From Tropicimonas sp. IMCC34011 (GTDB lineage: Bacteria > Pseudomonadota > Alphaproteobacteria > Rhodobacterales > Rhodobacteraceae), in the NCBI RefSeq assembly GCF_003390865.1, contig NZ_QMEJ01000001.1:1-64000 (forward strand): a stretch of 64,000 bases of DNA, in the 5' to 3' direction. Below are positions 22,121 through 42,650 of the stretch, piece after piece. The position numbers and the translations under genes are program-made. Each line of letters opens with the position of its first letter. Positions within the stretch are counted from its first letter, which is position 1. The notes beneath the pieces were generated by a model. That model searched no databases, was not told the origin of the DNA, and saw only the letters and a program-made list of their open reading frames with translations.

Positions 22121-23572
22121 CTACATCGGTTCCGGGGAGTGGTCGTCTGACGTTCCGGGTATCTCGCTGTTCACCTCCCCGAACTTCTTGCGCCAGGCTT
22201 CGGCGAACTGGGTGACTTCACCTTCCTCACGCGCGTCGACCAGGACGCCGCCGATCACCTCGGCAACGCTTCCATCCCGGAACGTTACCTGAATCCCTGA
22301 TTTGTCCGAACGGCGCCAGCGCCAGCCACTGAAGCCCGCGTGAAGTGAACGGAGCAATTTCCTGAGCTGCCTACCAAAGGTCACTCCGCCGGGCTGAACA
22401 TCAGGCCGTGGATCTTGGAGATCTGCTGCTTCAAACTGCGGTTCTCCGCCCGGATCTCCCGAAGCTCTTGCGAGATGTCCTTGAGCATCTGTGACAGTGC
22501 GGTGTTGGTCTCGTTCGCCTGATGCAGGGCTGCGCGGTGCTCTTCTCGGAGCTGTGTGGCCTTCCGCAAGTCCTCGGCGATCCTCTGGAGCGCCTCGATC
22601 AGAGCTTGGCCGAGTTCGGACATCGGGTGACCCGGGTCGTTCAGCAGATCGAGCAGCGGGAGCAGCTGGTCCACCTTGCCGTCCGTGGTGAGCATCGCTT
22701 TCAGCAACACTTCGTACTCCTGGGGAAGGGTCAGGGATGTCATCTTTTCTTGCATGTTCGAACTCCATGAGCGGTTTCGCGTGGGGCAGGATCGCTGCGA
22801 TAAATATCTGGGTGTTCAGGCGCAGTCGAAGGCGGTGGAGGGCATGGGCATGTGCGAGGCGCGTCTCGAGATGGCGCGGCTCCCACTCGGGCCCGAGTTC
22901 GCCCCCAAAGACGTGCGCGCCATCCAGGCTGAAGAGATGGCTCTTCACACCATGCGTATTCTGGGTCGTGGTGCGTAGGATGGCCGGGGTTTGCCGCGTC
23001 AGAGCAGCATCGAGGGCGTCGAGGGTTCTTGGGCGCTCGGTTGTGAAGATGGCTCTGAGGGCCTCGCTCAGCCTCTTCTTGGGCGCCGTGGTCAGCCGGC
23101 GGGTGATGACCGGTGGGTCGAGGCGCGGGATCTGAGGATTGAAGTAGTCCGGTACGGGCAAGCCGAGGCGCCGGGTCAGCATCTGGTGATTGCGACTTGT
23201 CAGGATGTCGCCGGTCTCGGGGCGCAGGCGGGATCCGTCAAAGCCACGCAGGGCGATGGCGACATGCACATGGTCGCAGTTGGCATCGGTATGACGGGCC
23301 GCGACCCACGGAGTGCGCAGGGCGGGTAGGCCCATCAGATCGAGCTGCGCCATGACAATCGCACGCCATGTTTCGCGACTGGCCCGCACTCCTACGGGCA
23401 GCGACAATGTCATGTGGATCACTCCCGCACCATCCGCGAGGTTATCCAAGCGGTCGCGCATGGACACGGGATCTGCGCGGAGGATGGTGCCGCCGATGAA
23501 TTCCGCACCGTCGCGGAGGTCATAGTCGGGCAGGACGCCGGCCGTTTTGTGGAAGGTGCTATGCGCGCGCAT
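22121..23572 (-). CDS. Relaxase / mobilisation nuclease (MobA/VirD2-like)
   Basis: This 483-aa protein would nick at oriT and lead the strand during transfer. The histidine triad of MOBP-type relaxases is visible as ARHTDANCDHVHVAIALR (H94, D96, H101, H103), after a region GVIHMTLSLPVGV typical of the fold. The nicking tyrosine is likely one in the first 30 residues but I cannot assign it. Residues about 272-397 are unusual: Pro/Arg/Gly/Ala-rich and without structure, and exactly this stretch encodes a well-formed protein in another frame. The last 80 residues look folded again (SGIQVTFRDGSVAEVIGGVL). It starts 3 bp after mobC. It marks region A as mobilisable. Confidence 0.8.
   Translation of the reverse strand: MRAHSTFHKTAGVLPDYDLRDGAEFIGGTILRADPVSMRDRLDNLADGAGVIHMTLSLPVGVRASRETWRAIVMAQLDLMGLPALRTPWVAARHTDANCDHVHVAIALRGFDGSRLRPETGDILTSRNHQMLTRRLGLPVPDYFNPQIPRLDPPVITRRLTTAPKKRLSEALRAIFTTERPRTLDALDAALTRQTPAILRTTTQNTHGVKSHLFSLDGAHVFGGELGPEWEPRHLETRLAHAHALHRLRLRLNTQIFIAAILPHAKPLMEFEHARKDDIPDPSPGVRSVAESDAHHGRQGGPAAPAARSAERPGSPDVRTRPSSDRGAPEDRRGLAEGHTAPRRAPRSPASGERDQHRTVTDAQGHLARASGDPGGEPQFEAADLQDPRPDVQPGGVTFGRQLRKLLRSLHAGFSGWRWRRSDKSGIQVTFRDGSVAEVIGGVLVDAREEGEVTQFAEAWRKKFGEVNSEIPGTSDDHSPEPM
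22381..22755 (-). CDS. Nested coiled-coil protein inside the relaxase gene (MobB-like arrangement)
   Basis: This 124-aa frame lies wholly inside the relaxase gene, shifted by one base. Unlike a chance frame it has normal composition and a regular helical pattern: SLTLPQEYEVLLKAMLTTDG, DLLNDPGHPMSELGQALIEA, then a long Leu/Glu/Lys coiled coil (AEDLRKATQLREEHRAAL, KDISQELREIRAENRSLKQQ). A GGAG box lies about seven bases before its ATG. The overlapped relaxase stretch is low-complexity, as expected where the other frame is constrained. In RSF1010 mobB is likewise nested in mobA. The function here is unknown. It may aid relaxosome assembly. It could also be a fortuitous frame, but I think that unlikely. 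Confidence 0.65.
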   Translation of the reverse strand: MQEKMTSLTLPQEYEVLLKAMLTTDGKVDQLLPLLDLLNDPGHPMSELGQALIEALQRIAEDLRKATQLREEHRAALHQANETNTALSQMLKDISQELREIRAENRSLKQQISKIHGLMFSPAE

Positions 23573-24376: not shown

Positions 24377-26284
24377 TCAGAACAATCGCGGGAGCTTCGC
24401 GACCACGCTGCTCATCACGGGCATCGACGTGGCGACATCATACTGCTCGTCATGCACGTCACCGCCGCTGTGCCCAACCAAGTCACGGCGTTGCTTCTCG
24501 CTGACCTCGGGCAACTCCTTCAGGTGGGCGATGGCATAATGGCGGAACGAGTGGAAGCAGAGTCCCCTGGGGTTACCGTCCAGCTGCAGCACCAGCGCCT
24601 TCGCCCAGTTGTAGTAGATCTTGTCTCCGAAGGACTGGCTATCATTTGTCGCGATCAACTCGGGGAAGAGGGCCGAGGCGCCTCGCATGCGCATCTCGTC
24701 GACATGCCTGAGAAAGCCCAGTTCGATCAGGTGCTCGTGAATGGGAACCAGGCGCTCGGAACTGAAGGTCTTGACCCTGCGGTGCATGTTGTCGCGGATG
24801 TGGTAGCAGGGAATGCCGTCGACGGACACGACATCGCGGGGTTCCAGCCCGAGAACCTCCTCCCGCCGGGCGCCGCTGTAGCCAGCCAGGATCGGCCCCC
24901 AGTAGAGCCCATCCGCCTTTACGATGTTGCCACGCTCATGGCGCCGCGACGTTGACCGGCACCCAGTCCAGATCGGATGCCGGAAAACCTGCTGAAGTTC
25001 CGGCAAGGTGAAGGCTTCGCGCTTGTCGCGGTTGCGCTTTTCCTCCCGGACGCGGAGCAGGCCGAGTTCGATCGTGTCCGAAATCGTGAGGCTTTCGCTC
25101 TTGGCGAACTGGAAGATGAGCTTGAACCGGTCCAGATGCCCGTTGATCGTGCGAGGTGAGAGGCCGACCTTCTTCTCGGGAAGATCCTCGGCGCTTGCCA
25201 GAAGCTCATCGATGGTCCTGTCCGCGTCCTTCGCGCTTTTCCCGTAGCTCGTTGGAAGTCGCTGCAACACCGACTTGTAGAACTTGAGATGGCCCTGGGT
25301 GATATCCCGAACGTCGGTGATGCCCGTGGCCTTGATGAACAGGCGTGCCTGGGCGGCAAGCTGCTTCCTGGTGTCTTCCTTGATGTGATCGCGATCCCTC
25401 TCGGCATTGATACGCTCAACGAGTGCGACAATGTCCGGGTCAAAACTGAACTCGGGCCTTTGGGCAGGGATTTGAGTGAGGGCAGGTGCCTCGATCAGAG
25501 TGGCTTCCTGAGGGACGGGAAGAGGCTCCAGAGGCTCGATGATCTCGGCAGACGCGCCGTCTAGGATTTCCCGCGCAAGGTCGCGCGCTTGTTCAAGGCT
25601 CGGATCTTCCCGATCTTCAGATGCGGACCAGGCCGCGGCTTTTCCTGCCAGCAGCAGTTGCCGCAGAGAGAGAAGCGTCTCGGCCGCAGGGTTCAAGGTC
25701 TCGCCTGTAGCCGTCTGAATGCTGTCCCGCGCGGCGCGAAGCATCTTGTTGACGCCCGCCTCGGACAGCACGTCGCGCGACAGGATGCCAAGCATCGTCT
25801 CCAGCGACGCGATGTCTGTCTCACTCGAACCTTCGTTGAGTACGGTGCGTCGGTCGTGAGCGGAGAGCTCCGGATGCAGTCCCTTTCTCGCCAGGTGAGA
25901 CCAGGCGCGCGCCGTCGCCCAATCGAGACGCTGGTCTTCCTCGCAAGAGCCCACCGGGTCCATCCGGCTGATCATGCGCTGACGCTCGATGCGGTCAAGC
26001 TCGCTGCGCACAACGGAGGTCAGCCAAGCCTTGGCCTGGGCGGGGGTCAGCTTTCCATCGGTGATTGCATCCAGCATCCGGTCGCACTCGTAATTCAATC
26101 TGTGTGCGATGATACATGCGATGGACCGGTCCGTGGTGCGCAGAGACAGCTGCCAATGTCGGGTTTTTGTGGAAAACTCAGGCACGCGCCGACGCCAGCT
26201 CCAGGTGGAGCCGCGTTGCAGGAGGTAGGGGGTGGTCGCCAAGATGCGGCCTCCAGAATTGGAGACGAGCGACCCGCATTTCAT
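24377..26284 (-). CDS. Tyrosine integrase with DUF6538-like N-terminus (region A integrase)
   Basis: This 635-aa site-specific recombinase has the short N-terminal YLLQRGSTWSWRRRVP motif of DUF6538 proteins, a long helical middle, a SAM-like core-binding region (about 290-390) and a catalytic domain. Catalytic residues are visible: Arg in GARREEVLGL near 468, the HSFRH box near 577, GHSGG near 597, and the tyrosine in DEQYDVAT near 611. It lies 79 bp from the att-like repeat at 26363-26383, so it probably integrated region A at tRNA-Asn. The left end of that element is not found in this window. Confidence 0.9.
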   Translation of the reverse strand: MKCGSLVSNSGGRILATTPYLLQRGSTWSWRRRVPEFSTKTRHWQLSLRTTDRSIACIIAHRLNYECDRMLDAITDGKLTPAQAKAWLTSVVRSELDRIERQRMISRMDPVGSCEEDQRLDWATARAWSHLARKGLHPELSAHDRRTVLNEGSSETDIASLETMLGILSRDVLSEAGVNKMLRAARDSIQTATGETLNPAAETLLSLRQLLLAGKAAAWSASEDREDPSLEQARDLAREILDGASAEIIEPLEPLPVPQEATLIEAPALTQIPAQRPEFSFDPDIVALVERINAERDRDHIKEDTRKQLAAQARLFIKATGITDVRDITQGHLKFYKSVLQRLPTSYGKSAKDADRTIDELLASAEDLPEKKVGLSPRTINGHLDRFKLIFQFAKSESLTISDTIELGLLRVREEKRNRDKREAFTLPELQQVFRHPIWTGCRSTSRRHERGNIVKADGLYWGPILAGYSGARREEVLGLEPRDVVSVDGIPCYHIRDNMHRRVKTFSSERLVPIHEHLIELGFLRHVDEMRMRGASALFPELIATNDSQSFGDKIYYNWAKALVLQLDGNPRGLCFHSFRHYAIAHLKELPEVSEKQRRDLVGHSGGDVHDEQYDVATSMPVMSSVVAKLPRLF

Positions 26285-27629: not shown

Positions 27630-27851
27630 GAGGGCTGTCACAAGGTTTTCGCACGCACATAGCTCAGGACGGCAGCAGCAGTGCGGTCAGTGTGCGATCG
27701 TCATCATGCTGTCGTGCAGCTATTGCGGGACTGTGAAAACGTCCTGCAAACGACACTGGATTTGGCCCATGGCATCTTGCTACCAATGTCAAAATGCCGA
27801 TCTCAAGGGTGCCTCGACGGCGTGCCCTGCTGCCAAAGAGGAGCGCATGTC

Positions 27852-28823
27852 GTGGGCGCCCGCGTATTCATCTCCTACAGCCATGTGGACGAGGCTCTCC
27901 GAGACGAGCTCGAGGTCCACCTCTCAATGCTGAAACGGCAAGGCCTCGTGGATGTGTGGCACGACCGCAGGCTCGTCGCCGGTGACCATCTCGACTGGAC
28001 GATTTTTCGGGAGCTCGATGAAGCGGACGTGATACTGCTCCTGGTCAGCCCGAACTTCCTGGCTTCGGATTACTGCTACAACATTGAGAAGGGGCGAGCG
28101 CTGGAGCGGCATCGTGAAGGCACTGCCCGCCTGATCTCCGTGATTCTTCGTCCATGCGACTGGACTCACACGGACCTCGCCCAGTTCCTGGTAGTTCCCA
28201 AAGACGCGAAGCCGGTGACGCAGTGGCCGGATCGCGACGAGGCATTCCTCGATGTCACCAAATCCATTCGAAGAGCTATCACTGAACTCGGGGCTGCCGG
28301 CAAGGAGAATGGGGAGCGCGAATACGTCAAGCAAGATCATGAAGCTGCGGCCGGTCGAGCTGACGTCGAAACCTTGCCGCGCTCTTCCAATCTTCGACTC
28401 AAGAAAGAGTTCTCGGAAGCGGACCGGGACGCCTTCCTGTTCGAGACATTCGAATATCTCGCCAAATTCTTCCAAGGTTCCCTTGAGGAACTTGGGGCTC
28501 GAAACGAGAGCATTGAAAGCCGCTTCCGACGGGTGGATGGCGACTGCTTCACGGCTACGATCTATCGGAATGGCGAGAAAGCGGCCGGTGGCACGATCCG
28601 GGTGGGCGGACTGTTCGGGTCCGGTATCACCTGGCTGGGAAACGACAGCGGACAGGCAAACACCCACAACGAAAGCCTGTCGGTCGGACACGATGACCAG
28701 AAGCTGTTTCTCACCGCGATGGGCATGCCCATGGGGGGCATCAACCGGGATTCGCATCTGACGCAGGAAGGCGCTGCCGAGTATCTATGGTCCCTCATGA
28801 TCGGCGCACTCCAGGGACACTGA
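27852..28823 (+). CDS. TIR-domain protein with unknown C-terminal domain
   Basis: The start chosen is GTG at 27852, eight bases after AAAGAGGAG. Earlier starts in the frame give an unstructured tail. Residues 1-135 are a TIR domain: VFISYSHVDEALRDELEVHL, the HDRRLVAGDHLDWTIFREL loop, and LLLVSPNFLASDYCYNIE, with E79 in the place of the NADase catalytic Glu. The C-terminal 150 residues (FEYLAKFFQGSLEEL, GGTIRVGGLFGSGITWLGND, then AAEYLWSLMIGAL) form a second domain I do not recognise. Bacterial TIR proteins often kill infected cells by NAD depletion after sensing phage. It lies 430 bp upstream of the four-gene operon, so it may belong to the same defence island without being part of the operon. 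The 323-aa length is normal. Confidence 0.8.
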   Translation: MGARVFISYSHVDEALRDELEVHLSMLKRQGLVDVWHDRRLVAGDHLDWTIFRELDEADVILLLVSPNFLASDYCYNIEKGRALERHREGTARLISVILRPCDWTHTDLAQFLVVPKDAKPVTQWPDRDEAFLDVTKSIRRAITELGAAGKENGEREYVKQDHEAAAGRADVETLPRSSNLRLKKEFSEADRDAFLFETFEYLAKFFQGSLEELGARNESIESRFRRVDGDCFTATIYRNGEKAAGGTIRVGGLFGSGITWLGNDSGQANTHNESLSVGHDDQKLFLTAMGMPMGGINRDSHLTQEGAAEYLWSLMIGALQGH

Positions 28824-29256: not shown

Positions 29257-32200
29257 ATGGACGTATTTTCGCTGAACCAGAAGGCGATCGAACGATATGA
29301 GAATTTCTCTCGATCCTTCGCCAACATCCTTTCCAAAGATCTCCAATCCGCGATCGATCAGGCCTACAACCAGCGCCGATATGTCCGCGAGCCTCTCGTC
29401 AGCCTGAATCCTCGTTTCAGGCCTGGAGCCTCGGTTGATGCGCGAGCTGCCGACGGAACAATTCTTGACGATACCGCGAAGGTCTTTCGACGCAATGATG
29501 GAGCCTCGATCGAGCTCTATGTGCATCAAGACCTTGCGCTCGGCATGGCGCAGTCGGGAAAGGGTTTTGTCGTTACGACTGGAACTGGCTCGGGCAAGTC
29601 GCTCTGTTTCTTCATCCCACTGATCGACGCTGCCATCCGAGCGCGCGCCGCGGGAGAAAAGCGCCGAACCCGCGCCATCATCATCTATCCGATGAATGCG
29701 CTCGCTAATTCCCAGCTCGAAGAAATCAATGGCTTTCTGCGTGACTCGGGGTTGAGCAATCCTCCTGTCGTCGAGAGATATACCGGGCAGGAATCCGAGG
29801 CTGATCGGGAACGGATCGCGGCCAATCCGCCAGACATCCTGCTGACCAACTTCATGATGCTGGAACTCCTGCTCACCCGGGCCGACCGGAAAGGACGCCA
29901 GGTCCTGGAGAACGCGCGTGGGCTCGACTGGCTCGTTCTTGACGAGTTGCACACCTATCGCGGCCGCCAGGGCGCCGACGTGGCAATGCTGGTTCGGCGC
30001 CTGCGGGATCGGCTGTCACCAGACCACTTGCGATGCATCGGTACCTCGGCCACCATGGCCTCGTCGGATGCGGTCTCCGAAGACCCGGCTACCGTCGTGG
30101 CGAATACGGCGACGATGATCTTCGGTGACCGGATCGAGCCTGAGGCCGTGATCGGCGAGACACTGGTGCGCGCCACCGAAGGACATGTGGATGGAGCTGA
30201 CTTGCAGAAGGCCATCCACACGCCCCTTGCCGCGCTGCCGGATGACAGTCTGAAGGTTGAACCGCTCGTCGTCTGGGCCGAAACCCGCATCGGCCTGACG
30301 GACGATCCGATCCCACAGCGCCGCAAGCCGCGCACCCTGAGCGAGGCGGCAGCGCAGCTTTCCGAGGAGTCCGGCGAGCCGGTGCCCGACTGCCTGGTCG
30401 CGCTCAAGCACGCGCTGTCCGTCGCCTCGATGCCGGAAACCCAGCGGGGAGGGCCATCGGACAGAGGCTTTCTGGCCTACAAGCTTCATCAGTATCTGTC
30501 CGGTCCCGACAGCCTGTATGCAACCCTCGGCCCGGAAGGTGGACGAACCATCCGGTTCGACAAGCAGAAGACAGACCCGAAAGCCGAGGCGCGACTGTTC
30601 GAGGTTCGCTTCTGCCGCAAGTGTGGGCAGGACTATCATCCCGTCCGGTCGGTACTGGATGGTACGGGGCGGCGATACGTTCCTCGCTCGATCGACGAAG
30701 AGCCGCTCGACGACGATGACGAAACCGGATTTCTGTGCCGTGCGGAAGGACTGCCCTTCGAGGGCGAGCAGGATCTTCCGTCGTCTTGGCTCGAGGAGAC
30801 GGCGAATGGCGCGACCCGGGTCAAGCGGACCTATCGCGAGCGGGTCCCGTTTCAGGTTTCGGTCGACTCCCAGGGCGTCGAAGGGTCCGGGCTCGGCATG
30901 TGGTTCATGAAGGGGAAGTTCTCTCTCTGCCTGCGCTGCGGAGACACCCCTCCGGGACAAGGCCGGGACCGCAACAGGTTGTCTGGCCTCTCCGCCGAGG
31001 GCCGATCCTCGGCAACGACGATTTTGAACTCGGTCGCCCTTGAGGAAATGGAGACGGCGCAGGCCGGGCGCAGCAAGCTGCTGACCTTTACCGACAACCG
31101 CCAGGATGCCGCCTTGCAGGCAGGGCACTTCAACGACCACGTCTTCGTCACCAAGCTGCGCGCCGCCATTTTCGCCGCCGTGCGTGACGCTGGCAGTGGC
31201 GGGCTGGCGGGCCGTGATTTCGGAGACGCCGTCCGGCGAGCTCTGGGCTATGCTTGGTCGAACGAGGACAGCCATGAGGAATGGCTTCGGGATGATGTCC
31301 GCGGACGCAAAGCGACCGAGGCCGAGGTCCTTTTGTCCCGGGTCATTGCGCATCGGGTCTGGACGGATCAACGCCGTGGCTGGCGTTTCACCAACCCCAA
31401 CCTCGAAGATCTCGAGCTCGTCCGGGTCGAGTACTCGATGCTTCCGGGACTTGCGGGTGAGGATGCCATCTTCGCCGGCGCGCCTGAAGCCCTCCGAAAT
31501 GCGTCGCCGGATATCCGCTTAAAGGCCTTGCGTATCCTCCTCGAACACATGCGGACCGGTCTCGCCATCGACGTCGAGGCGCTGGACCGGCAACGGTTCG
31601 AGGAAATTGCCGAGGAGTCGAGACGCTATCTCCAATCTCCCTGGGCCATCCACGAAAAGGAGCGCCCGCGCGAAGCCGCCTGGCTGATGCTCGAAGGCAC
31701 ATCGCGCGCCAACATCTCCCTGCGGGACGAAGGCATCGTGCTTCGCGGCAGTGCGCCGTCGGCCCTGGGCAAAGCTCTCGTGGACGAAAACCTATGGGGG
31801 CGTCGGCTGCGGCGAGCCGAGGTGACCGAGGTCATCGAAGCGCTTCTTCAGGCGACCGCCCATGACGACTACGCCTATATCCGGGCGCAGCGTACCCCCT
31901 TTGGCCCCATGGGATGGAAGCTCGATCCCGGTGCGCTGAAGCTCTGTGCCGTCACTGATCCTGTGGAGGATGGCGACAGAGGGGCACCACCCAACCGCTA
32001 TTTCCGGGACCTCTACGCCAGGGTTGCCGACAACATGCTGGCCAGGCGAGCGCCATTGCGCGGCCTCGAGGCGAGGGAGCATACGGCACAGGTGGACAAG
32101 GATCTCCGGCAGCACCGGGAGCGCCGGTTCCGGTTCGGTGAGGACGACCGGAAGCAGATGCGGGAGACGCCGCATGACAACGAAACCTCTCGGCGTCTGC

Positions 32201-34335
32201 CGTTGCTGGTCTGCTCGCCAACGATGGAACTCGGGGTCGACATCTCAACGCTCGAGCATGTGCACCTTCGCAATGTCCCACCAACGCCGGCCAACTACAC
32301 GCAGCGGGCCGGGCGCGCGGGCCGCGCCGGGCAGGCGGCACTGATCACCACCTATTGCGCCGCGCAAAGCCCGCATGACCAGTACTACTTCGCCGATCCG
32401 GGCCAGATGGTTGCGGGCTCGGTGCAGCCGCCGCTTCTCGATCTCGGCAATGAGGAGCTTGTCGTCTCCCATTGTCACGCGATCTGGTTGGCGGAATCCG
32501 GTATCGAACTCGCAGCGGCCATCGCCGAGGTGCTGGACCTCACCCAAGGCGACGGCAAGTATCCCCTCCGCGCCGACGTGGCGGCAGCTCTGTCGGTTCC
32601 CGACCTTGCCTCTCGGGCGGCAGAGCGCATGGTGGCCGTCCTCAGTCAGATTGCCGGCCGGCCCTTCGGACATGATCTCGCCGAAGTCACCGCGCGCAAC
32701 GCCTTCAAGAATTTCGACCAGGCGTTCGACTCGTGGAGGCGGCGGTTGAGTGCCGCCGAAGACCAGAGAGATCGCGGCTACCGGCTGTCGAAGAGTACCC
32801 AGGCAAGTGCCGAGGAAAGACGACAAGGCGATCGGTCCTACAACAGCGCTCGACGTCAAATCGAATTGCTCAAGAGCGGCAAGGACTCGAATTCGTCGGA
32901 CTTCTTCACCTACCGCTATCTGGCAACCGAGGGATTCCTGCCCGGGTACAATTTCCCGCGCCTGCCGCTCACAGCTTTCGTCCCTGGCGCCGAGCGTCGT
33001 GGCCGCGGCGACTTCCTGTCTCGGGCCCGCTTTCTGGCGATCTCTGAGTTCGGACCGGGGAGCATGATCTATCACGAGGGCCAGTCCTTCCGGGTGACGC
33101 GCGCAATGTTGCCACCCGAAGTGCGCGCAGGAGACGGAGGCGGGCTGAGTACGGAGGTACTGCTGCTCTGCCCGAACTGCGGTGCCATTCAAGCCTCCGA
33201 TGCACCCGAGCGCTGCGAGGGATGCGGCACCAGCCTTGCCGAACCCATTCGGCTCGATGGTGCGTTCCGGGTCGAGAATGTCGAGGCCGCTCCGTCGGAG
33301 CGCATTTCCGCCAATGACGAGGAGCGTCAGCGCCAAGGTTTCGACATTCAGACCGCCTTCGCATTCCAGGGCGAACCAGAGAGGGTCCGACTCCGTGATT
33401 GCGACGGCAAGGAGCTGGCGACGATCTCCTACGGTCCGCGGACCCGCATCGCCAGGATCAACAAGGGGCTGAGGCGCCGGCGTGACAAGGACCTCTACGG
33501 GTTCAAGATCGGAACCCACAGTGGCCGTTGGCGTGGTTCGGCGGGCGGTGATGAGATCGATCCGGATTCGCGTCCAAGTGCGGAGCCTGAGCAGACGGTT
33601 CTGCCGATGGTGGAGGATCGCAAGAATGCCATGCTCCTGGTGCCGACGCAGCAGTTGGAGGTTGAGGATGTCGCTACCCTACAAAGTGCGCTGGCACGCG
33701 GCCTTGAGCGGGTCTTTCGTCTGGAGGAGGGTGAGATCGCCGTCGATCCGGTTCCTGATCGCGAGGCGCGCAACGGCCTTCTCTTCTACGAGGCGTCCGA
33801 GGGGGGCGCCGGTGTGCTGTCGCGGATCTCGCGCCAGGAGGACCTACAAGCGGTTGTCAGGGCCGCTCTTGAAATCATGCATCTTGAAGAAGTTGGAGGT
33901 GAGTGGCGTGACCGTACCGACGCTCCGTGTGTGGAGGGCTGCTATCGCTGCATCCTGACCTATTTCAACCAGCCCGATCACGAACTGATTGATCGCCAGC
34001 GCGGAGATGCCCGTCGTTTCCTGGCCGACCTCTTGTCGGCCCAAGTCGAGGCGACTGCTCCGATCGGCAAACCGGTCTCGGTCGACACGCTGGCCACAGA
34101 CAGGCCTTGGGCAGACGCGGCACGCAGGTGGGGTATCGTACCGCCGGACCCGAAACCCGTCGTGCGGGGGGGCAAGAAAGCTCGAGCCTCGTGGAGCAAG
34201 TCCTATACCGCCGTGACCGACGACGCCGACCTCACCGAAGCGCTGTCGAACGAAGGCTATATCGTCCTTGGGGCGAGCGATCCGCCGGAAATGCTGCCAG
34301 AAGAACTGGCGCACATTGATAAGGTGACGCCATGA
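29257..34335 (+). CDS. Large DEAD/DEAH helicase with DUF1998-like C-terminus (defence operon gene 1)
   Basis: This 1,692-aa superfamily 2 helicase starts at ATG 29257, with GGAGGCAAGG upstream. A GTG at 29236 is an alternative. Walker A TTGTGSGKS lies near residue 108, the Walker B box LVLDELHTYRG near 229 and the SAT motif GTSATMASS near 262. The second RecA domain has MELGVDISTLEHVHLRNVPP and QRAGRAGRAGQ near 1000. Possible zinc sites are CRKCG near 453, CLRCG near 559 and CPNCG...CEGCG near 1305-1325. The C-terminal VEGCYRCILTYFNQPDH near 1560 is the DUF1998/MZB cysteine signature. This layout combines in one chain what DISARM splits into DrmA and DrmB, and also recalls DruE of Druantia. 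Its stop overlaps the next gene by 4 bp. Confidence 0.88.
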   Translation: MDVFSLNQKAIERYENFSRSFANILSKDLQSAIDQAYNQRRYVREPLVSLNPRFRPGASVDARAADGTILDDTAKVFRRNDGASIELYVHQDLALGMAQSGKGFVVTTGTGSGKSLCFFIPLIDAAIRARAAGEKRRTRAIIIYPMNALANSQLEEINGFLRDSGLSNPPVVERYTGQESEADRERIAANPPDILLTNFMMLELLLTRADRKGRQVLENARGLDWLVLDELHTYRGRQGADVAMLVRRLRDRLSPDHLRCIGTSATMASSDAVSEDPATVVANTATMIFGDRIEPEAVIGETLVRATEGHVDGADLQKAIHTPLAALPDDSLKVEPLVVWAETRIGLTDDPIPQRRKPRTLSEAAAQLSEESGEPVPDCLVALKHALSVASMPETQRGGPSDRGFLAYKLHQYLSGPDSLYATLGPEGGRTIRFDKQKTDPKAEARLFEVRFCRKCGQDYHPVRSVLDGTGRRYVPRSIDEEPLDDDDETGFLCRAEGLPFEGEQDLPSSWLEETANGATRVKRTYRERVPFQVSVDSQGVEGSGLGMWFMKGKFSLCLRCGDTPPGQGRDRNRLSGLSAEGRSSATTILNSVALEEMETAQAGRSKLLTFTDNRQDAALQAGHFNDHVFVTKLRAAIFAAVRDAGSGGLAGRDFGDAVRRALGYAWSNEDSHEEWLRDDVRGRKATEAEVLLSRVIAHRVWTDQRRGWRFTNPNLEDLELVRVEYSMLPGLAGEDAIFAGAPEALRNASPDIRLKALRILLEHMRTGLAIDVEALDRQRFEEIAEESRRYLQSPWAIHEKERPREAAWLMLEGTSRANISLRDEGIVLRGSAPSALGKALVDENLWGRRLRRAEVTEVIEALLQATAHDDYAYIRAQRTPFGPMGWKLDPGALKLCAVTDPVEDGDRGAPPNRYFRDLYARVADNMLARRAPLRGLEAREHTAQVDKDLRQHRERRFRFGEDDRKQMRETPHDNETSRRLPLLVCSPTMELGVDISTLEHVHLRNVPPTPANYTQRAGRAGRAGQAALITTYCAAQSPHDQYYFADPGQMVAGSVQPPLLDLGNEELVVSHCHAIWLAESGIELAAAIAEVLDLTQGDGKYPLRADVAAALSVPDLASRAAERMVAVLSQIAGRPFGHDLAEVTARNAFKNFDQAFDSWRRRLSAAEDQRDRGYRLSKSTQASAEERRQGDRSYNSARRQIELLKSGKDSNSSDFFTYRYLATEGFLPGYNFPRLPLTAFVPGAERRGRGDFLSRARFLAISEFGPGSMIYHEGQSFRVTRAMLPPEVRAGDGGGLSTEVLLLCPNCGAIQASDAPERCEGCGTSLAEPIRLDGAFRVENVEAAPSERISANDEERQRQGFDIQTAFAFQGEPERVRLRDCDGKELATISYGPRTRIARINKGLRRRRDKDLYGFKIGTHSGRWRGSAGGDEIDPDSRPSAEPEQTVLPMVEDRKNAMLLVPTQQLEVEDVATLQSALARGLERVFRLEEGEIAVDPVPDREARNGLLFYEASEGGAGVLSRISRQEDLQAVVRAALEIMHLEEVGGEWRDRTDAPCVEGCYRCILTYFNQPDHELIDRQRGDARRFLADLLSAQVEATAPIGKPVSVDTLATDRPWADAARRWGIVPPDPKPVVRGGKKARASWSKSYTAVTDDADLTEALSNEGYIVLGASDPPEMLPEELAHIDKVTP

Positions 34336-37094
34336 CCTCTGCACCCAGCTCCCTGGCGAGCCCCGGCGGCCTGATCCGTGCGCGTGGTAGGGAATGGGTT
34401 GTCCTGCCCGGATCGGGACCCGACCGCCTGCGTTTGCGGCCGCTATCCGGGATGGAGGGTGACGCCACCGTCGTGCTGCCCGGACTCGAGCAGGTTCCGC
34501 CCGAGCCGGCCATTTTCAAGGCGCCGGACGCGTCTCGGATGGGCACCTCCTCGCAAGCGCGCCTGCTGTCGGATGCACTACGCCTCAGCCTTCGTCGCGG
34601 CGCGGGGCCATTCCGGTCGTCCGGCCGGATTGCGTTCGAGCCGCGAGCCTATCAGCTCGTTCCACTGATCATGGCCCTGCGTCTCGACCCCATGCGACTG
34701 CTGATCGCGGACGACGTCGGCATCGGCAAGACCATCGAGGCCGGGCTGATCCTGCGCGAGATGTGGGACCGCGGTGAGGTGACGCGAGCTTGCGTGCTGT
34801 GTCCGCCACATCTGGTCGAGCAATGGGTCGATGAGCTGCGGGAGAAGTTCGACCTGCATGCAACCGCCGTGACCGCCACGACCGCACCGCGGCTGGAGCG
34901 CGGCTTGGCATTGAACGAGAGCCCGTTCGACGCCCATCCTCTGACGGTCGTCAGCCTGGACTACATCAAGGCCGATCGACGTCGCGCCGACTTCGCGAAA
35001 TCTTGCCCGAACTTCGTCATCGTGGACGAGGCGCACGCCTGTGTCGGCGGCGGACGCGGCACGACCCAGAGGCAGGTCCTGCTGAACGGTTTGGCCAAGG
35101 ACGCGGATCGCCACATGGTCCTGCTCACGGCCACGCCGCATTCCGGCGACGCGGAGGCCTTTGACGACATCCTGGCGCTGCTTCGGCCGGACTTCGCCCA
35201 CGGGGCGTTGTCGAAGGCCCGGGAAGAACTGGCTCAGCACTTCGTACAGAGGCGGCGCATCGATGTGCGCGAGGAGGGCTGGGAGGTTCCCGGTGCAATG
35301 CGGACTTTCCCCCGGCATGATGTCGGCGAAAGAGCGTTTCAGCTATCCCCCTCGCACGTGGCATTCCACGAGGCTGTCCTTGGCTGGTGCACCGAGCGCG
35401 CTGCGAAAGCCGGCCATGACGCTCGGCAGCGGCGATTGGCGATCTGGGCAACCCTGGCCCTGATGCGTTGCGTCGGCTCCTCGCCTGCCGCCGCGGTTGC
35501 CACGCTGGAAGCCAGACGCGGGCCAGTCGAAGATGCCGATCTGGAAGCCACTATCTTCGACGAGGACGAGGGTCAGCTCACGGATGACGACCTCGAACCG
35601 GGAGCGATGGCGGAGGACATGTCCGGCCTCGACGACCTCCTGAAGATGGCGCACGACCTTGAGACCAGACCACAGGAGGATGCCAAGTTGTCCCTCCTGA
35701 AGCGTGAACTGATGGGGCTCTGTTCCGAGGGACATCAGCCGGTCGTGTTTTGCCGGTACATTGCCACGGCTGAAGCCGTAGGCGCTGCGCTCAAGAGCGA
35801 CAAGGCCTTCAAGGACCGGACCATTGAGGTCGTTACCGGCCGGCTTCCGGGAACGGAACGCAGGGTCCGCGTTGAAGCCATGTCGGATGCCGATCGCCGG
35901 ATACTCGTGGCCACCGACTGCCTTTCGGAAGGGATCAACCTCCAGACTTTGTTCGATTCCGTCGTGCACTACGATCTGTCTTGGAATCCGACGCGCCACC
36001 AGCAGCGCGAAGGTCGGGTGGACCGGTTCGGTCAGAAGAACGACGTACGCTCGCTGACCATCTTCGGAAGCAACTCAGCCATCGATGGGGCCGTGCTCGA
36101 CGTGATCCTCCGGAAGGCCGAGGCGATCCGGAAAGCCACCAATGTCTCGGTCAGCATGCTCGACGATCGTGGCACTGTCTCCGAGGCGCTGATGCATGCA
36201 ATGGTTTTGAAGTCCGGCACTGCTTCGGGTCGTCAGGGCGATCTGTTTCGCGACCTCGATCCAGCGGCAGATCTTGAACAGCTCTGGCGCGATGCGGAGG
36301 AGAACGAGAAGGCCTCCCGGGCACGATTTGCCCAGCGGCGCCTGAAACCCGAAGAGGTGATCCCGGAGTGGCAGCGCGTGCGCGATCTGCTTGGAGATAC
36401 CGAGGACGTCCGGCGGTTCGTGCGCCGCGCCCTGGACCGGGTCGGTGTCACCTTTGACGGCAAGTCCATCCCGGTCGACGCGCTGCCCGACATGATGCGT
36501 GAAGCCCTGTCCTCGCGCGGCATCCAGGGCCGTACCCGCGTTTCGTTCGATGCGGTCGCCCAGCCAGGGATCGAAGTGCTGCACCGTACTCACCCGATCG
36601 TCGCGACCCTGTCCGACACCCTGTCCGAAGGTGCTCTGGAGGATGCTCCGGACGCTCTTGCACGATCCGGCGCCTGGACCAGCCGCGGCGCCAAAACAAT
36701 GCTGACGCTGGCACTTCTCAGGGTCCGCCACCGCATTCGCCGTGCCTCGGCTGCTGCCGAAGATTTCCTGCTGGCAGAAGAAATTGTACCAGTGCTGTGG
36801 GAGGGAACGGCCTCTGGACATACCGCCATCGGCCTCGACGCGCTCAAGGTGCTTGACGAAGAGGTTGGGGCAACCTTGCCCGAGCCGGTGCGACGTGCTC
36901 AGGTGTTGCGCGCTCGGGATCGTATCGAGGCCTCGGACGCCCTCTCCGCCATCGCCCAATCACGGGCCGAGTCACTGACGGCCGATCACGACCGCCTGCG
37001 CGTCGCTTCGTCCACGCGCGGCCGGACAATCGTCGAGCCGGTCCTGCCGCTGGATCTCATCGCCCTCCATGTTATCCTGCCGGAGGCCAAATGA
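34332..37094 (+). CDS. SNF2-family helicase, DrmD-like (defence operon gene 2)
   Basis: This 920-aa SF2 ATPase of the SNF2/RapA type starts at the ATGA overlap with gene 1. Motif I ADDVGIGKTIEAGLILREMW is near residue 125, motif Ia CPPHLVEQWVDELREKF near 157, the DEAH box IVDEAHACVGG near 231 and TATPHSGDAEAF near 260. The second lobe has ATDCLSEGINLQ near 530 and the arginine-finger motif HQQREGRVDRFGQKNDV near 556. The C-terminal third is helical and acidic. The closest described role is DrmD, the SNF2-like helicase of class 1 DISARM, but this is judged by motif and context only. Its stop overlaps the methyltransferase start by 4 bp, showing tight coupling. Confidence 0.88.
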   Translation: MTSAPSSLASPGGLIRARGREWVVLPGSGPDRLRLRPLSGMEGDATVVLPGLEQVPPEPAIFKAPDASRMGTSSQARLLSDALRLSLRRGAGPFRSSGRIAFEPRAYQLVPLIMALRLDPMRLLIADDVGIGKTIEAGLILREMWDRGEVTRACVLCPPHLVEQWVDELREKFDLHATAVTATTAPRLERGLALNESPFDAHPLTVVSLDYIKADRRRADFAKSCPNFVIVDEAHACVGGGRGTTQRQVLLNGLAKDADRHMVLLTATPHSGDAEAFDDILALLRPDFAHGALSKAREELAQHFVQRRRIDVREEGWEVPGAMRTFPRHDVGERAFQLSPSHVAFHEAVLGWCTERAAKAGHDARQRRLAIWATLALMRCVGSSPAAAVATLEARRGPVEDADLEATIFDEDEGQLTDDDLEPGAMAEDMSGLDDLLKMAHDLETRPQEDAKLSLLKRELMGLCSEGHQPVVFCRYIATAEAVGAALKSDKAFKDRTIEVVTGRLPGTERRVRVEAMSDADRRILVATDCLSEGINLQTLFDSVVHYDLSWNPTRHQQREGRVDRFGQKNDVRSLTIFGSNSAIDGAVLDVILRKAEAIRKATNVSVSMLDDRGTVSEALMHAMVLKSGTASGRQGDLFRDLDPAADLEQLWRDAEENEKASRARFAQRRLKPEEVIPEWQRVRDLLGDTEDVRRFVRRALDRVGVTFDGKSIPVDALPDMMREALSSRGIQGRTRVSFDAVAQPGIEVLHRTHPIVATLSDTLSEGALEDAPDALARSGAWTSRGAKTMLTLALLRVRHRIRRASAAAEDFLLAEEIVPVLWEGTASGHTAIGLDALKVLDEEVGATLPEPVRRAQVLRARDRIEASDALSAIAQSRAESLTADHDRLRVASSTRGRTIVEPVLPLDLIALHVILPEAK

Positions 37095-40000
37095 TGCGCC
37101 ACGAGACGATGCACCGCCCCGTTGAGATCGGCGCCGGCCTGATCCTCGAAGGAGGCCTGATCCCGTCTGACATGATCGCGAAGATTGCCCGCGGGCAGGC
37201 CACCGAACAGGCCGCAGCGGACTATGGCGTGCCGAAGGGCCTGACCCTCAACGATGAGATCGAGCGCGCCTTCCGCATGGCCCGCGCCGCCAATGACGAC
37301 CCCGCCACCGATGCCGCCTCGCAGGCCCGCACGGTACTGCGGGCCTTCGGTTTCGACGACCTGACGCACGGGCAGCTGACCGTGGGCGAAAGACGCTTCC
37401 CAGTCGACTTGATGACAGGCGACGGCTGTGTCCCGGTCGTCGTCGCGCCCGAAGACGGCCTCGACCGCGCCCGGCATGAAGGCGGACCCTCGGGCCGGTT
37501 CCGGTCACCGGCGCTGCTCTTGCAGGACGCGCTCAACGCCTCGGACGATGCCCTCTGGGGCCTCGCCACCGACGGCAAGCGCATCCGTCTCATGCGCGAC
37601 TCCGTCCGCCTCGGCCGCCCGGCCTTCCTCGAGGCCGACCTGGGCGCAATCCTCGACACGGACGACCTTGCCGCATTCGCCGGTCTTTGGCGGCTGATCC
37701 ATCGCACACGTTTCGGCCGCGGCGATGCCGTGGACGGCCCGCTGGAACGCTGGAGCAAGGCCGCAGCCGAGCAGGGCGTCGCCGCCCGCGAACGCTTGCG
37801 CGATGGCGTCGAGGCGGCGCTGAGGGCGCTCGGCGCTGGCGCCCTCGCGGACCCGGCCACCCGTGCCCGGATCGAAGCTGAGGAACATCCGGCCGATGCG
37901 CTCCATGCCGAAGCCCTGCGCGTCGTCTACCGGCTGATCTTCATCCTGACCACCGAGGACCGCGACCTCCTGCACGCCCCCGACGCCACCGATGAGGCTC
38001 GCCAGACCTATGCCGAGGGCTATGCGCTCACCCGCCTCGCCCTGCGCGCCCGCAGGCGAACCAGCCGCGACCGGCACTACGACGCCTGGGAGGGCGTCAA
38101 GGTCCTGTTCCGCGCTCTCCAGAAGGGTGAGCCGCTCCTGAGCCTGCCCGCCCTCGGCGGCCTGTTCCGCGAGGGCCTCACGCCGCTCCTCGATGCCGCC
38201 ACGCTGCCCAACCGCCACTTCCTCGACGCGCTCTTCCACCTCGCCTGGATACGCGACGGCAATTCCCTGGCCCGGATCAACTGGCGCGACATGCAGACCG
38301 AGGAACTGGGCTCGGTCTACGAATCCCTCCTGGAACTCGTCCCCCGTCTGGCCGAGAACCACACGCTGCTCGACTATGCGGGCGGGGCCGAGACGCGGGG
38401 CAACCAGCGCAAGACCACCGGCTCCTACTACACGCCCGACAGCCTGGTGCAGGCGCTACTCGACAGCGCGCTCGACCCAGTGATCGCCGACCGCCGCCGC
38501 GGCATCGGCACACCGAACGGCGAGACCGGCGCCGAGGGCATCCTCACCATGACTGTCTGCGACCCGGCCTGCGGATCAGGGCACTTCCTGCTCGCCGCCG
38601 CCCGCCGGATGGCCGAGGCGGTCGCCCGCACCCGCGCCGAGGCCGAGGGCGAGACCTTCGACCCCGCCGCCTTCCGCCATGCCCTGCGCGAAGTCGTGGC
38701 GCGCTGCATCTTCGGGGTGGACCGCAACGATTTCGCCGTGGAACTCGCGCGCGTCGCGCTCTGGATCGAAAGCGTCGAGCCGGGGCGGCCTCTGGGCTTT
38801 CTCGACGCCAACATCCGGCACGGTGACGCGCTCCTGGGGCTGTCGGATCTGTCGGTACTGGCGAACGGCATCCCGGATGCGGCCTACAAGGCGCTGACCG
38901 GGGACGACAAGGGCATCGCCTCGGATCTGCGCAAGCGCATCAAGGCCGAGCGCGAGGGCCAGGGCGATCTCGGCCTCGACGGGCCCGGCGGGCTGCCGCC
39001 GGCGCTGGTGGCCTTCGACCAGCGGCTCCACGCCGCCAGCCAGGACACGCTGGAAGAGGTCGAGCGCCTGCGCGCCAGCTTCGAAGCCCGGGGGGCGGAT
39101 GCCGAGCGGCGGCGGGTGCGGCGGGCGGCGGATGCCTGGGTGGCGGCGTTCCTGCTGCCCAAGAAGCCACAGGTGCAGGTGCCGACCACGGCGGATATCG
39201 GCCGCATCCTGGCGCGGCAGGGCGACCCGGTGCTGGTGCAGGGCGTCGCCGACACCGCGGCCGAGGCGCACGTGCTGCACTGGCCGATAGCCTTTCCCGC
39301 GATCTGGGCGCGCGGTGGGTTCGACGTGATGCTGGGCAACCCGCCTTGGGAGGTCCTCCAGATCGGCGAAAAGGAATTCTTCGCTGCCCGCGATCCGGAC
39401 ATCGCCGAGCTTGCCGGAGCTAAGCGGAAGGCCGCGATTTCGGCGCTTGAAGCCGAAAACCCGGAGCTCCTTGCGGAATTCAATCACGCGAGGCGCACGG
39501 GCGAAGCGGCGAATGACTTCGCGCGAGCCTCCGGGCGGTTCGACCTGACGGCCCGCGGCAAGGTCAATACCTACGGCCTCTTCGCCGAACATTTCGCGCG
39601 ATCGGTCAATCGTCACGGCCGGGCCGGGGTAATCGTGCCGACCGGGATTGCGACGGATGCGACTACGGCACCGTTCTTCGCCTGGCTGGTCGAGGATCGG
39701 CGGCTATCCCACATGATCTCCTTCGAAAATGAGAGCATGATCTTCCCCGGTGTTCACCACGCCTTCAAATTCGCGCTGCTTACGATCTCGTCAGCGCCCA
39801 TAGAGGAAATGCGCTTCGCCTTCTATCTGCGCGACCCGTCGTGGCAGAGTGACCGACGGCGCGTCTTTTTTCTCACCTCTGAGCAGATTGCCCGTATCAA
39901 CCCGAACACCAAGACCGCACCCGTTTTCCGCTCGCGCCGAGACGCCGAACTGACTGCAAAGATCTACGATGCCGCGCCGGTGCTGATCGAGGAGGCTCGG

Positions 40001-41056
40001 GCCGATGCCAATCCGTGGGAGGTCGAGTTCCGGCAGGGTCTGTTCAACATGACTTCGGACTCTGGTTTATTCCGAACTGCCTCTCAGCTGGCGGAAGAGG
40101 GTTGGCGCCGTCATGGCAACGAATGGACTCGCCCGCGCACTCATGTCCACCGGCCTGAGGCGGCCCGGCCCGCGCAATCGGCGATGGACCTTGATGGCCG
40201 CGACAACCGCTCCCTGCCGCTCTCGCGCGCCGAAGAGCGAATGGTACCGCTCTACGAGGCGAAGATGATCCATCAGATGGACCATCGATGGGCCACCTAC
40301 GACGGCGAGGAGGCCCGTGACGCGACCACGGCGGAAAAAGCCGATCCAGGCTGGGAGCCCATGCCGCGCTACTGGGTTTCCGGCGATGAGGTCGAAGCCT
40401 GTGTCAACGCCAAGGGTCGGCGGCGCGGCTGGCTGATGGGCTGGCGTGACATCACAAACGCGACGAACGAGAGAACAGCGATTGCGGCGGCTATCCCGAC
40501 AGTTGCCGTTGGGCACGTCTTGCCGCTCTTCTTCGTCAATGCCGAGCCCGGTCAGTGGGCTGCGCTACTGGCGAACCTGAATTCCTTGCCTACCGATTTC
40601 GTTGCCCGTCAGAAGGTTGGTGGCACCCACCTGACATACGGCTACGTCAAACAGTTCCCGATATTCCCCCCCACATTCTACACCCCCGACCGCCTGCACT
40701 TCGTCACCCTTCGCGTCCTCGAACTCACCTACACCTCCCACGCGCTGGCCCCCTTCGCCCGCGACCTTGGCCATGACGGACCGCCCTTCGCCTGGGACGA
40801 GGGCCGCCGCGCGCTTCTCCGCGCCGAGCTCGACGCCTTTTACGCCCGCGCCTACGGCCTGACCCGGGACGAACTGCGCTACATCCTCGACCCGGCCAGC
40901 GTCATGGGCGCCGACTACCCCTCGGAAACCTTCCGGGTGTTGAAGCAGAAGGAACAGCGGCTCTACGGGGAATACCGGACCGAACGGCTGGTGCTCGAGG
41001 CCTGGGACCGGTTCTCGGCTGACTGGAGCGCCGTGGGCATGGGCGACCGCGCGTGA
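37091..41056 (+). CDS. Large Eco57I-like adenine-type DNA methyltransferase (defence operon gene 3)
   Basis: This 1,321-aa protein has a helical N-terminal region of about 430 residues without a visible nuclease PD-ExK motif. The methyltransferase core follows: TTGSYYTPDSLVQALLD near 445, motif I CDPACGSGHFLLAAARRMA near 490, GVDRNDFAVELARVALWIE near 545 and the catalytic NPPWEV near 750. A specificity region follows to about 1190 and a conserved-looking C-terminus after it. It resembles the large methylases of DISARM class 1 (DrmMI) and PglX/BREX. NPPW places it among amino-methylating enzymes, probably N6-adenine. Third codon positions are strongly G/C at both ends but relaxed from about 39360 to 40650, which suggests a swapped specificity region. 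It overlaps its neighbours by 4 bp on both sides. Confidence 0.88.
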   Translation: MMRHETMHRPVEIGAGLILEGGLIPSDMIAKIARGQATEQAAADYGVPKGLTLNDEIERAFRMARAANDDPATDAASQARTVLRAFGFDDLTHGQLTVGERRFPVDLMTGDGCVPVVVAPEDGLDRARHEGGPSGRFRSPALLLQDALNASDDALWGLATDGKRIRLMRDSVRLGRPAFLEADLGAILDTDDLAAFAGLWRLIHRTRFGRGDAVDGPLERWSKAAAEQGVAARERLRDGVEAALRALGAGALADPATRARIEAEEHPADALHAEALRVVYRLIFILTTEDRDLLHAPDATDEARQTYAEGYALTRLALRARRRTSRDRHYDAWEGVKVLFRALQKGEPLLSLPALGGLFREGLTPLLDAATLPNRHFLDALFHLAWIRDGNSLARINWRDMQTEELGSVYESLLELVPRLAENHTLLDYAGGAETRGNQRKTTGSYYTPDSLVQALLDSALDPVIADRRRGIGTPNGETGAEGILTMTVCDPACGSGHFLLAAARRMAEAVARTRAEAEGETFDPAAFRHALREVVARCIFGVDRNDFAVELARVALWIESVEPGRPLGFLDANIRHGDALLGLSDLSVLANGIPDAAYKALTGDDKGIASDLRKRIKAEREGQGDLGLDGPGGLPPALVAFDQRLHAASQDTLEEVERLRASFEARGADAERRRVRRAADAWVAAFLLPKKPQVQVPTTADIGRILARQGDPVLVQGVADTAAEAHVLHWPIAFPAIWARGGFDVMLGNPPWEVLQIGEKEFFAARDPDIAELAGAKRKAAISALEAENPELLAEFNHARRTGEAANDFARASGRFDLTARGKVNTYGLFAEHFARSVNRHGRAGVIVPTGIATDATTAPFFAWLVEDRRLSHMISFENESMIFPGVHHAFKFALLTISSAPIEEMRFAFYLRDPSWQSDRRRVFFLTSEQIARINPNTKTAPVFRSRRDAELTAKIYDAAPVLIEEARADANPWEVEFRQGLFNMTSDSGLFRTASQLAEEGWRRHGNEWTRPRTHVHRPEAARPAQSAMDLDGRDNRSLPLSRAEERMVPLYEAKMIHQMDHRWATYDGEEARDATTAEKADPGWEPMPRYWVSGDEVEACVNAKGRRRGWLMGWRDITNATNERTAIAAAIPTVAVGHVLPLFFVNAEPGQWAALLANLNSLPTDFVARQKVGGTHLTYGYVKQFPIFPPTFYTPDRLHFVTLRVLELTYTSHALAPFARDLGHDGPPFAWDEGRRALLRAELDAFYARAYGLTRDELRYILDPASVMGADYPSETFRVLKQKEQRLYGEYRTERLVLEAWDRFSADWSAVGMGDRA

Positions 41057-41871
41057 GCTTCGACCCCGCCCCCTCCGGCCCGGCGCGGCTGATCCTGCAA
41101 AAGGCAGGCTACGACGGCGGCTGGACACTGCAACCCGAGGGCACCATCCCCGCCGCGCTCGACGCCCCGCCCTGGATGACGCTGCGCTCGCAGAACGCCC
41201 CCGGCCAGATCGCGCTCGCCCTCGCCCCCCCCGGCTACGCCCTGCGCACCACCCCCCGCGTCCAGCGCCGCCTGGCCGAGGAGGGGCTGGGCGCCCCCGA
41301 GGTCGACCACCTGCGGTTCGCGACACTGATCGAGCTCCGCACCGCCACCCTGCGTGCCTGGCACCTGTTCCGCGCCCTCCCGGACGCCCCCGAGGCCGCC
41401 TTCGAGGCCGACCTGAAGCGGGAAGGCCAGGCCTGGTCCGGCCCCGCCTCGCAGGACCTCGACCCCACCCGCGCCACCACCCGCGAGGCCCAGGTCCGCC
41501 TGCGCGTCGGCCAATCCACCTTCCGCGCCGCCCTCGACGACTACTGGGCTGGCCGCTGCCCCCTGACCGGCATCACCGACCGTGCCCTGCTGCGCGCCAG
41601 CCACATCGTTCCATGGAGCGAGTGCAAGAGCGACGGCCAGCGCCTCGACGTCTTCAACGGCCTCCTGCTCGCCGCCCACTGGGATGCCGCCTTCGACGCC
41701 TTCCTGGTCAGCTTCGATGCCGAAGGCCGCGCCATTGCATTGCCGGGCCTGTCGGAGGCCGCCGGGCGGGCCCTGGGTCTCAGCACGGTCCCACCCATCA
41801 CGCTCGCCGAGGATCATGCCGCTCCGCTTGCCTGGCATCGCGAACGGGCCCTGACGCGGCACCAGACCTGA
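41053..41871 (+). CDS. HNH endonuclease (defence operon gene 4)
   Basis: This 272-aa protein starts at a GTG that overlaps the methyltransferase stop (GTGA). The C-terminal half carries an HNH domain of the HNH_2 type: RCPLTGITDRALLRASHIVP near 167-186, with the conserved His, then the LDVFNGLLLAAHWDAAFD stretch with Asn and the last His. The N-terminal 150 residues form an unknown, very GC-rich domain that probably recognises DNA or the partner proteins. In DISARM the nuclease is the PLD protein DrmC, and here an HNH enzyme takes that slot. The same HNH type is often found beside methylases of modification systems. It is the last gene of the operon, facing the kfrA-like gene. Confidence 0.85.
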   Translation: MSFDPAPSGPARLILQKAGYDGGWTLQPEGTIPAALDAPPWMTLRSQNAPGQIALALAPPGYALRTTPRVQRRLAEEGLGAPEVDHLRFATLIELRTATLRAWHLFRALPDAPEAAFEADLKREGQAWSGPASQDLDPTRATTREAQVRLRVGQSTFRAALDDYWAGRCPLTGITDRALLRASHIVPWSECKSDGQRLDVFNGLLLAAHWDAAFDAFLVSFDAEGRAIALPGLSEAAGRALGLSTVPPITLAEDHAAPLAWHRERALTRHQT

Positions 41872-41901: not shown

Positions 41902-42504
41902 CTACTCTGCCGGCACAGGCTGTTGCAAAGTCTCTTTCATGAGCGCCAACATCTGGCCGCGGAAATCCTGTTCCTTCTGGAGGTCCGCGACGCGTGCCTT
42001 CAGGGCCGCATTCTCCGAATTCGCCTTCGCCAGCAGGTCCTCGACTTCGAGCTTCGCATGGTCGAGGTCTGCAATTTCCACTGCCAGATGATCGATCTTC
42101 GACAGGAGGTCACGGATCTGCGCGCGCTGAATGCCGAGATCGACCTCTTGGGCGGCGACCTTCTGGGCCGCCAACGCTCGAAGGCCTTCGAGCTCCTGAC
42201 CGAGGTGAAGCAGCACCGCGTTCTCGACCATCGCCCCGATCTCCTTGACCGCAGCTCGGCTTTCACCGGGCAAAGCTGCGATGAGCCGCTCTCGGCGCTG
42301 CCGATCACGGTCCTCGAGAAGCCGTTGGACCTCCTTTTCAAGGCTCTGCGCGTTGATGCTTTCACGCACGCCGAGCCGGGCGCACATAGCTTTCTTCACA
42401 GTGTCACCCGTCGGTCGCTCGCCGTTTTTCTCGACGATCTCAATCCCTTCGACCACCTGGTCCTCAGTGTATTGGGGCGGGCGACCGATCTTCTTTTCTG
42501 CCAT
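41902..42504 (-). CDS. KfrA-like DNA-binding coiled-coil protein
   Basis: The start chosen is ATG 42504 after AAAGGAAAG, giving 200 aa. The frame is open to 42552. The N-terminus (KKIGRPPQYTEDQVVEGIEI, then GDTVKKAMCARLG) matches the KfrA_N DNA-binding domain (PF11740 family). The rest is a long coiled coil (AEIADLDHAKLEVEDLLAKA, NSENAALKARVADLQKEQD). KfrA proteins of plasmids bind their own promoter and help partition or stability. Here it probably serves maintenance of the excised form of element B. It is followed at its 5' side by the AAA ATPase gene on the same strand. Confidence 0.8.
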   Translation of the reverse strand: MAEKKIGRPPQYTEDQVVEGIEIVEKNGERPTGDTVKKAMCARLGVRESINAQSLEKEVQRLLEDRDRQRRERLIAALPGESRAAVKEIGAMVENAVLLHLGQELEGLRALAAQKVAAQEVDLGIQRAQIRDLLSKIDHLAVEIADLDHAKLEVEDLLAKANSENAALKARVADLQKEQDFRGQMLALMKETLQQPVPAE

Positions 42505-42650
42505 TTTCTTTCCTTTCGTTTCGCAAAGAGTTTGCGAAAGGGGGTTTGTCAAAGTAGCGACCTGCGCCGCTCTGAATGAGATTGGTCTGTTTCCCCGCGA
42601 CGGAAGAAAGTTCCGGCCGCGGCCGGAATTCTTCTCTGCGACGAGTTGGG

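Follow-up and report, generated by a model that had tools for sequence, protein, structure and literature searches.

Organization of the operon

The stretch analysed here, referred to as the window, comprises the first 64,000 nucleotides of contig NZ_QMEJ01000001.1 of Tropicimonas sp. IMCC34011 (Rhodobacteraceae) and contains four consecutive same-strand genes (29257–41871) that encode a YprA-family helicase, an SNF2-type helicase, a DNA methylase and an HNH endonuclease (Table 1). The operon quite probably represents an ARMADA Type I anti-phage system belonging to a distinct and apparently undescribed branch, in which the HNH protein would cut DNA in trans in place of a decayed Vsr nuclease domain located C-terminally in the YprA helicase.

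Table 1. Genes and domains of the operon, with positions in the window
Feature	Coordinates	Strand	Evidence
YprA-family helicase (ArmC/DruE/DrmA+B-like), 1692 amino acids	29257–34335	+	ORF (open reading frame) call, Pfam, PADLOC, tree
MZB/DUF1998 zinc-binding domain of the YprA helicase, residues 1475–1566	33679–33954	+	Pfam
Apparent degenerate Vsr-like nuclease domain, helicase C-terminus, catalytic residues lost	34102–34311	+	Profile, model, alignment
SNF2/BrxHII/RapA-like helicase, 920 amino acids	34332–37094	+	Pfam, PADLOC, NCBIfam
PglX/DrmMI-like adenine-type DNA methylase, 1321 amino acids, DPACGSG and NPPW motifs	37091–41056	+	
Hypervariable methylase part, residues ~750–1000, likely target recognition region	39341–40090	+	Comparison with locus L002
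HNH_2 endonuclease, 272 amino acids, GTG start, catalytic H184, N202, D211, D215	41053–41871	+	

According to Pfam, the first protein contains DEAD, Helicase_C and MZB/DUF1998 domains, the second SNF2-rel_dom and Helicase_C, the third Eco57I, MmeI_Mtase and N6_Mtase, and the fourth HNH_2. The first gene could also start at an in-frame GTG at 29236. Each of the three junctions is a 4-base overlap, the last being GTGA at 41053. An earlier annotation, made by a model from the letters of the window and here called the sequence-only reading, had taken the four overlapping genes for one operon, and the coordinates, the GTGA and a block shared with a Cribrihabitans locus (L002) uphold this view. The same applies to two further claims of that reading: DrmA- and DrmB-like functions are joined in one chain, as seen from the helicase and MZB domains of the 1692-residue protein, and the third gene does contain the NPPW motif of a methyltransferase, together with DPACGSG.

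DNA similarity between the window and L002 has the ATG at 29257 as its exact starting point and spans the operon with 83% identity, while similarity to a Tranquillimonas locus (L003) begins at 29190; upstream of these two starting points, the DNA comparison reveals no similarity. In related Roseobacter-group genomes the operon occurs as a single block. Ratios of non-synonymous to synonymous substitution rates (dN/dS) between the window and L002 lie between 0.06 and 0.19 across the four genes (0.19 for the HNH gene), each of them being under purifying selection. Given the block of similarity starting at 29257 and these low ratios, the four-gene operon is real and not a chance arrangement.

Affiliation to ARMADA Type I

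The first three genes are the trio that defines ARMADA Type I, in the same order (Bell et al. 2025 preprint, PMC12458937). Helicases of this type are described as carrying a BrxA-like insert after RecA1, an HTH/coiled-coil extension before the OB-CON-DUF1998 module, and a C-terminal Vsr nuclease predicted to be active. Phylogeny agrees with gene content: the window YprA protein falls within a 28-row ARMADA I clade with a support of 100 in the Shimodaira–Hasegawa-like approximate likelihood ratio test (SH-aLRT), and this clade includes Nocardioides, cyanobacterial and haloarchaeal systems with the ARMADA I layout. Its identification as ARMADA I relies on which genes are present, on their order and on the position in the tree, the preprint representative WP_108720193.1 not being among the rows. 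Outside it lie ARMADA II (L246, L247 and L250, from E. coli, Klebsiella and Streptomyces plasmids) and Druantia, sampled as type III (L248 and L249) and not as types I or II. Of the features of ARMADA I, the gene set, its order and the grouping of YprA are thus found in the window, but the active C-terminal Vsr is not; since its catalytic residues are lost, the system is classified as a variant of ARMADA I and not as a standard member. A further difference is the separate HNH gene that closes the operon. ARMADA Type II shares the same three core families, yet its order is SNF2–methylase–YprA, it has a UvrD/GajB-like helicase in place of HNH, and it forms a separate clade.

Resemblance to other defence systems is more distant. 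With class 1 DISARM the window has in common a DrmD-like helicase, a DrmMI-like methylase and DrmA/DrmB-like functions; however, helicase and DUF1998 (MZB) are fused instead of being encoded by separate drmA and drmB genes, the four genes contain no match to a phospholipase D (PLD) nuclease (DrmC), the fourth being HNH_2, and the SNF2 helicase reaches 290.5 bits with the NCBIfam DrmD model, below the cut-off of 610. Druantia likewise possesses a large DUF1998 helicase, and DruE models are the best PADLOC matches of the window YprA protein (about 293 bits), but DruH and other partners are absent among the four genes and the protein lies outside Druantia III. Assignment to Dpd fails too, with 173 bits against 500 for NCBIfam DpdE and no deazaguanine gene among the four. 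The sequence-only reading was therefore right that the operon is neither DISARM nor Druantia, as attested by score cut-offs, missing partners and tree position, but the operon is no orphan hybrid, three of the four genes being, in order, those of ARMADA Type I, with which the tree agrees. PADLOC model PDLC02853, labelled DpdE, matches the window SNF2 helicase over its full length with 592 bits, and gives 1074 bits on the SNF2 helicase of the Nocardioides ARMADA I system; judged by these scores, the model probably describes an ARMADA helicase and bears a different name.

The degenerate Vsr tail of the helicase

YprA tails of the outgroup end with an intact Vsr motif, LER...PDFxY...(V/C)DGxxHD, whereas those of the window's branch do not. 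By alignment column, the E, D, D and H residues are each present in 43/43 intact tails; in the 86 degenerate tails of the window's branch conservation is lost at these positions, and the HHD loop is missing. Profile–profile alignment nevertheless relates degenerate to intact tails with a probability of 96.8%, a value that reaches 98.6% for the four lineages that are the first to branch off within the window's branch (G1400, G1403, G1475 and G294). In the structural model of the tail, residues 46–115 are confident and follow the succession of helix, strands, helix and strand expected for a Vsr fold. A second structural look with VIA gave as best match I-Bth0305I, a Vsr-like homing endonuclease, with a modest Z of 5.5 over 72 residues, while Foldseek run with the tail model alone returned no significant match. 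Judging from alignment and profiles, the C-terminus of the YprA helicase thus appears to retain a recognizable Vsr domain that has lost its active site.

Elsewhere in the ARMADA I clade, a degenerate tail is found only in Chlorohelix (L083, 12001–28743), on a separate branch. This ARMADA I-like locus, whose Vsr tail is independently degenerate, is followed by a gene for an EVE-domain protein; no HNH gene was found within the available stretch, and its HNH context was classed as unknown.

The HNH endonuclease

The C-terminal half of the fourth protein matches the EVE-HNH endonuclease VcaM4I (PDB 6YEX) in sequence (1e-34) and in fold (Z 13.9). The catalytic residues H224, N241, D250 and D254 of VcaM4I (PMC7897488) correspond to H184, N202, D211 and D215 in the window, and no aligned copy spanning these positions has lost them (H 79/79, N 77/77, D 76/76 and D 76/76). 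The likeness is confined to the HNH domain and its catalytic residues: Pfam detects neither an EVE nor an SRA domain in the window protein, which moreover sits in a helicase–methylase operon. Pfam finds nothing in the first 125 residues, whose best fold match, a weak one (Z 6.3), is only suggestive of a YdhG-like fold.

These features bear on two other explanations of the gene. The HNH protein could be a backup nuclease, or an auxiliary modification-dependent enzyme of the type IV, VcaM4I-like kind, whose N-terminal domain would read phage base modifications and so cover phages that evade the methylase, while the helicases would restrict without it. Its closest solved relatives, VcaM4I and TagI, are indeed modification-dependent, it has an N-terminal region of its own of ~125 residues, standalone HNH genes have been reported as auxiliary effectors near BREX (PMC12839542), and in some relatives other defence-like genes, such as one for a GmrSD_N protein, lie between methylase and HNH. 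That no EVE or SRA domain is detected and that the YdhG-like match is weak speak against this role, and together with the distribution described below make it rather unlikely. The other explanation assumes BREX-like action, a complex of methylase and helicase blocking phage replication without cutting, so that the decayed Vsr and the HNH protein would matter little. Relatives of the methylase and the SNF2 helicase include PglX and BrxHII, respectively, of BREX, and ARMADA II protects without cell killing (PMC12458937), but the HNH catalytic residues are kept without exception in the covering copies and selection on the gene is purifying (dN/dS 0.19); this second explanation is considered improbable.

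Exchange of Vsr and HNH across relatives

The genome scan yielded 79 loci out of 543 stretches encoding a relative; these were pooled with loci of whole genomes, plasmids and viral contigs, and the four genes were sought in each. Vsr was classified by pattern match and HNH was searched with a profile built from the window's branch, so that, in systems with an intact Vsr, nucleases unrelated to this profile would go uncounted; Pfam searches of nine proteins around intact-Vsr operons and one from L083 disclosed no clear nuclease family. With flanks extended, 76 systems (the window included) have lost Vsr and possess HNH, 27 have an intact Vsr and no HNH, none has both and three have neither, the context being unknown for 35. 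Four apparent exceptions (G1400, L018, L069 and L079) have the HNH gene further downstream, beyond short flanks. Once two distant outgroup rows are dropped (G1292, intact without HNH, and G822, lost without HNH), the 104 ARMADA I systems with known context comprise 76 with degenerate Vsr and HNH, 26 with intact Vsr and no HNH, none with both and two with neither; for the latter, L042 and L169, the context is incomplete or rearranged. The four genes therefore occur together in 76 sampled systems, and the prospect raised by the sequence-only reading, that their neighbourhoods might show them rarely together, is not what is found. Nor does HNH replace the DISARM PLD nuclease (DrmC), as had been proposed: the nuclease proper to ARMADA I is the Vsr domain at the helicase C-terminus, which is degenerate here.

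In the tree, systems with a lost Vsr and an HNH gene fall together into a single branch of 91 rows (support 100), surrounded by lineages whose Vsr is intact; IQ-TREE on 40 rows recovers the same branch. The SNF2 and methylase trees each require two changes of the Vsr/HNH label, which indicates that the operon has largely travelled together. A reverse check on plasmids led to the same association, the HNH relatives of L087, L088, L238, L240, L241, L242, L243 and L244 all following SNF2 and methylase genes. There were two exceptions: a partial HNH match among insertion sequence (IS) elements in L245, and a full-length relative in L239, an unannotated Paracoccus versutus plasmid (8785–9669), where a search of the 9 kb upstream revealed no methylase gene; this relative is either an orphan or part of a longer operon.

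The presence of HNH tracks the loss of the Vsr active site, the gene not being found where Vsr is intact. An optional accessory would be expected to come and go more freely, so this distribution counts against an auxiliary HNH and favours a cutter acting in trans.

Proposed mechanism

Methylases of the window and L002 are 92–100% identical over residues 400–750 and 38–70% over residues 750–1000, the helicases of the two loci having near 90% identity. Residues 750–1000 are likely a diversifying target-recognition region, and such hypervariability supports sequence-specific marking.

On the basis of these comparisons, the best reading is methylase-guided restriction in which an HNH cutter acting in trans has taken over from the Vsr cutter. 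In this scheme, the methylase would mark host DNA at a target sequence set by the variable region in its C-terminal part; phage DNA lacking the mark would engage the SNF2 and YprA helicases, which would translocate on it or unwind it; and the HNH protein would cut in trans, the Vsr domain at the YprA end having lost its active site. Defence activity, self-marking and the effector role of HNH are what we infer, and to this extent the view of the sequence-only reading, in which the operon is a defence system that has a methylase and uses HNH as effector, stands as the preferred one. Several points weigh against it. ARMADA I itself rests on prediction, since the activity assays of the preprint concerned ARMADA Type II only (PMC12458937). 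The identity of the decayed Vsr is founded on profile alignment and intermediate lineages, with a non-significant Foldseek search and a modest VIA score. The HNH protein could have the backup or modification-dependent role outlined above. Finally, the exchange maps to a single change within the ingroup, and the co-occurrences cannot be counted as independent of one another; for this reason no p-value is claimed, and a simple association test was set aside, rows not being phylogenetically independent.

More speculatively, the inactive Vsr domain may have been retained to serve the HNH subunit as a platform for docking or for handling DNA, the sensor remaining unchanged while the cutter passed from cis to trans and became replaceable, in which case effector exchange would be a principle of YprA systems; this extension is tentative.

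Occurrence and significance

No HNH protein in ARMADA was described in the literature found, targeted searches brought up nothing closer, and the main text of the ARMADA preprint contains ‘HNH’ only in the title of a reference; the HNH-bearing, Vsr-degenerate branch of ARMADA I is apparently both large and undescribed. Counting ARMADA I-like YprA genes at E 1e-150 or better, which mixes intact-Vsr and HNH forms, 14/398 sampled Pseudomonadota genomes are positive, with 9/296 in the window's family; the proportions are 18/244, 17/189, 12/199 and 12/195 in the phyla of four other hosts. A 2026 review places ARMADA with those systems for which the mechanism of restricting unmodified DNA is unknown (PMC12904381). 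With the presumed cutter encoded by a separate, removable gene, the question of DNA cutting becomes testable by a single-gene deletion that leaves the large helicase undisturbed. The branch also acquires a clear detection rule, where PADLOC models now match it as DpdE, DrmD or DruE, and it suggests that a defence system can swap its nuclease and retain the sensing machinery.

Accessory and neighbouring genes

In relatives, the slot between methylase and HNH holds varying accessory genes, with LmuB-like/DUF2326, GmrSD_N, IrrE-like peptidase, HD, Schlafen-like and reverse transcriptase products (L017 14831–16792, L059 22058–24001, L025 14370–15530, L223 6801–9416, L228 6919–8598 and L237 4114–7182). 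They were not counted as core members since they vary among relatives. One conjugative plasmid, Nocardioides pNOCA01 (L081), carries drmA and drmB, a cytosine methylase, ARMADA I and McrBC side by side.

Just upstream of the operon in the window, a TIR protein (27681–28823, + strand) matches PADLOC ThsB1 of Thoeris with 380 bits; a single PF18185 search identified no ThsA partner, and control genomes were likewise without a match. Three genes on the − strand are defence- or repair-like, coding for an SbcC/LmuB-like ATPase (13704–17423), an SbcD-like phosphoesterase (17427–18809) and an OLD-family nuclease (18917–20851). A relaxase (22121–23572, −) and a DUF6538 protein, possibly an integrase (24377–26284, −), are consistent with a mobile element. 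Downstream, a KfrA-like coiled-coil gene (41902–42552, −) faces the operon; it may travel with it, because the DNA similarity to L002 and L003 extends into this gene, which was left out of the definition of the system.
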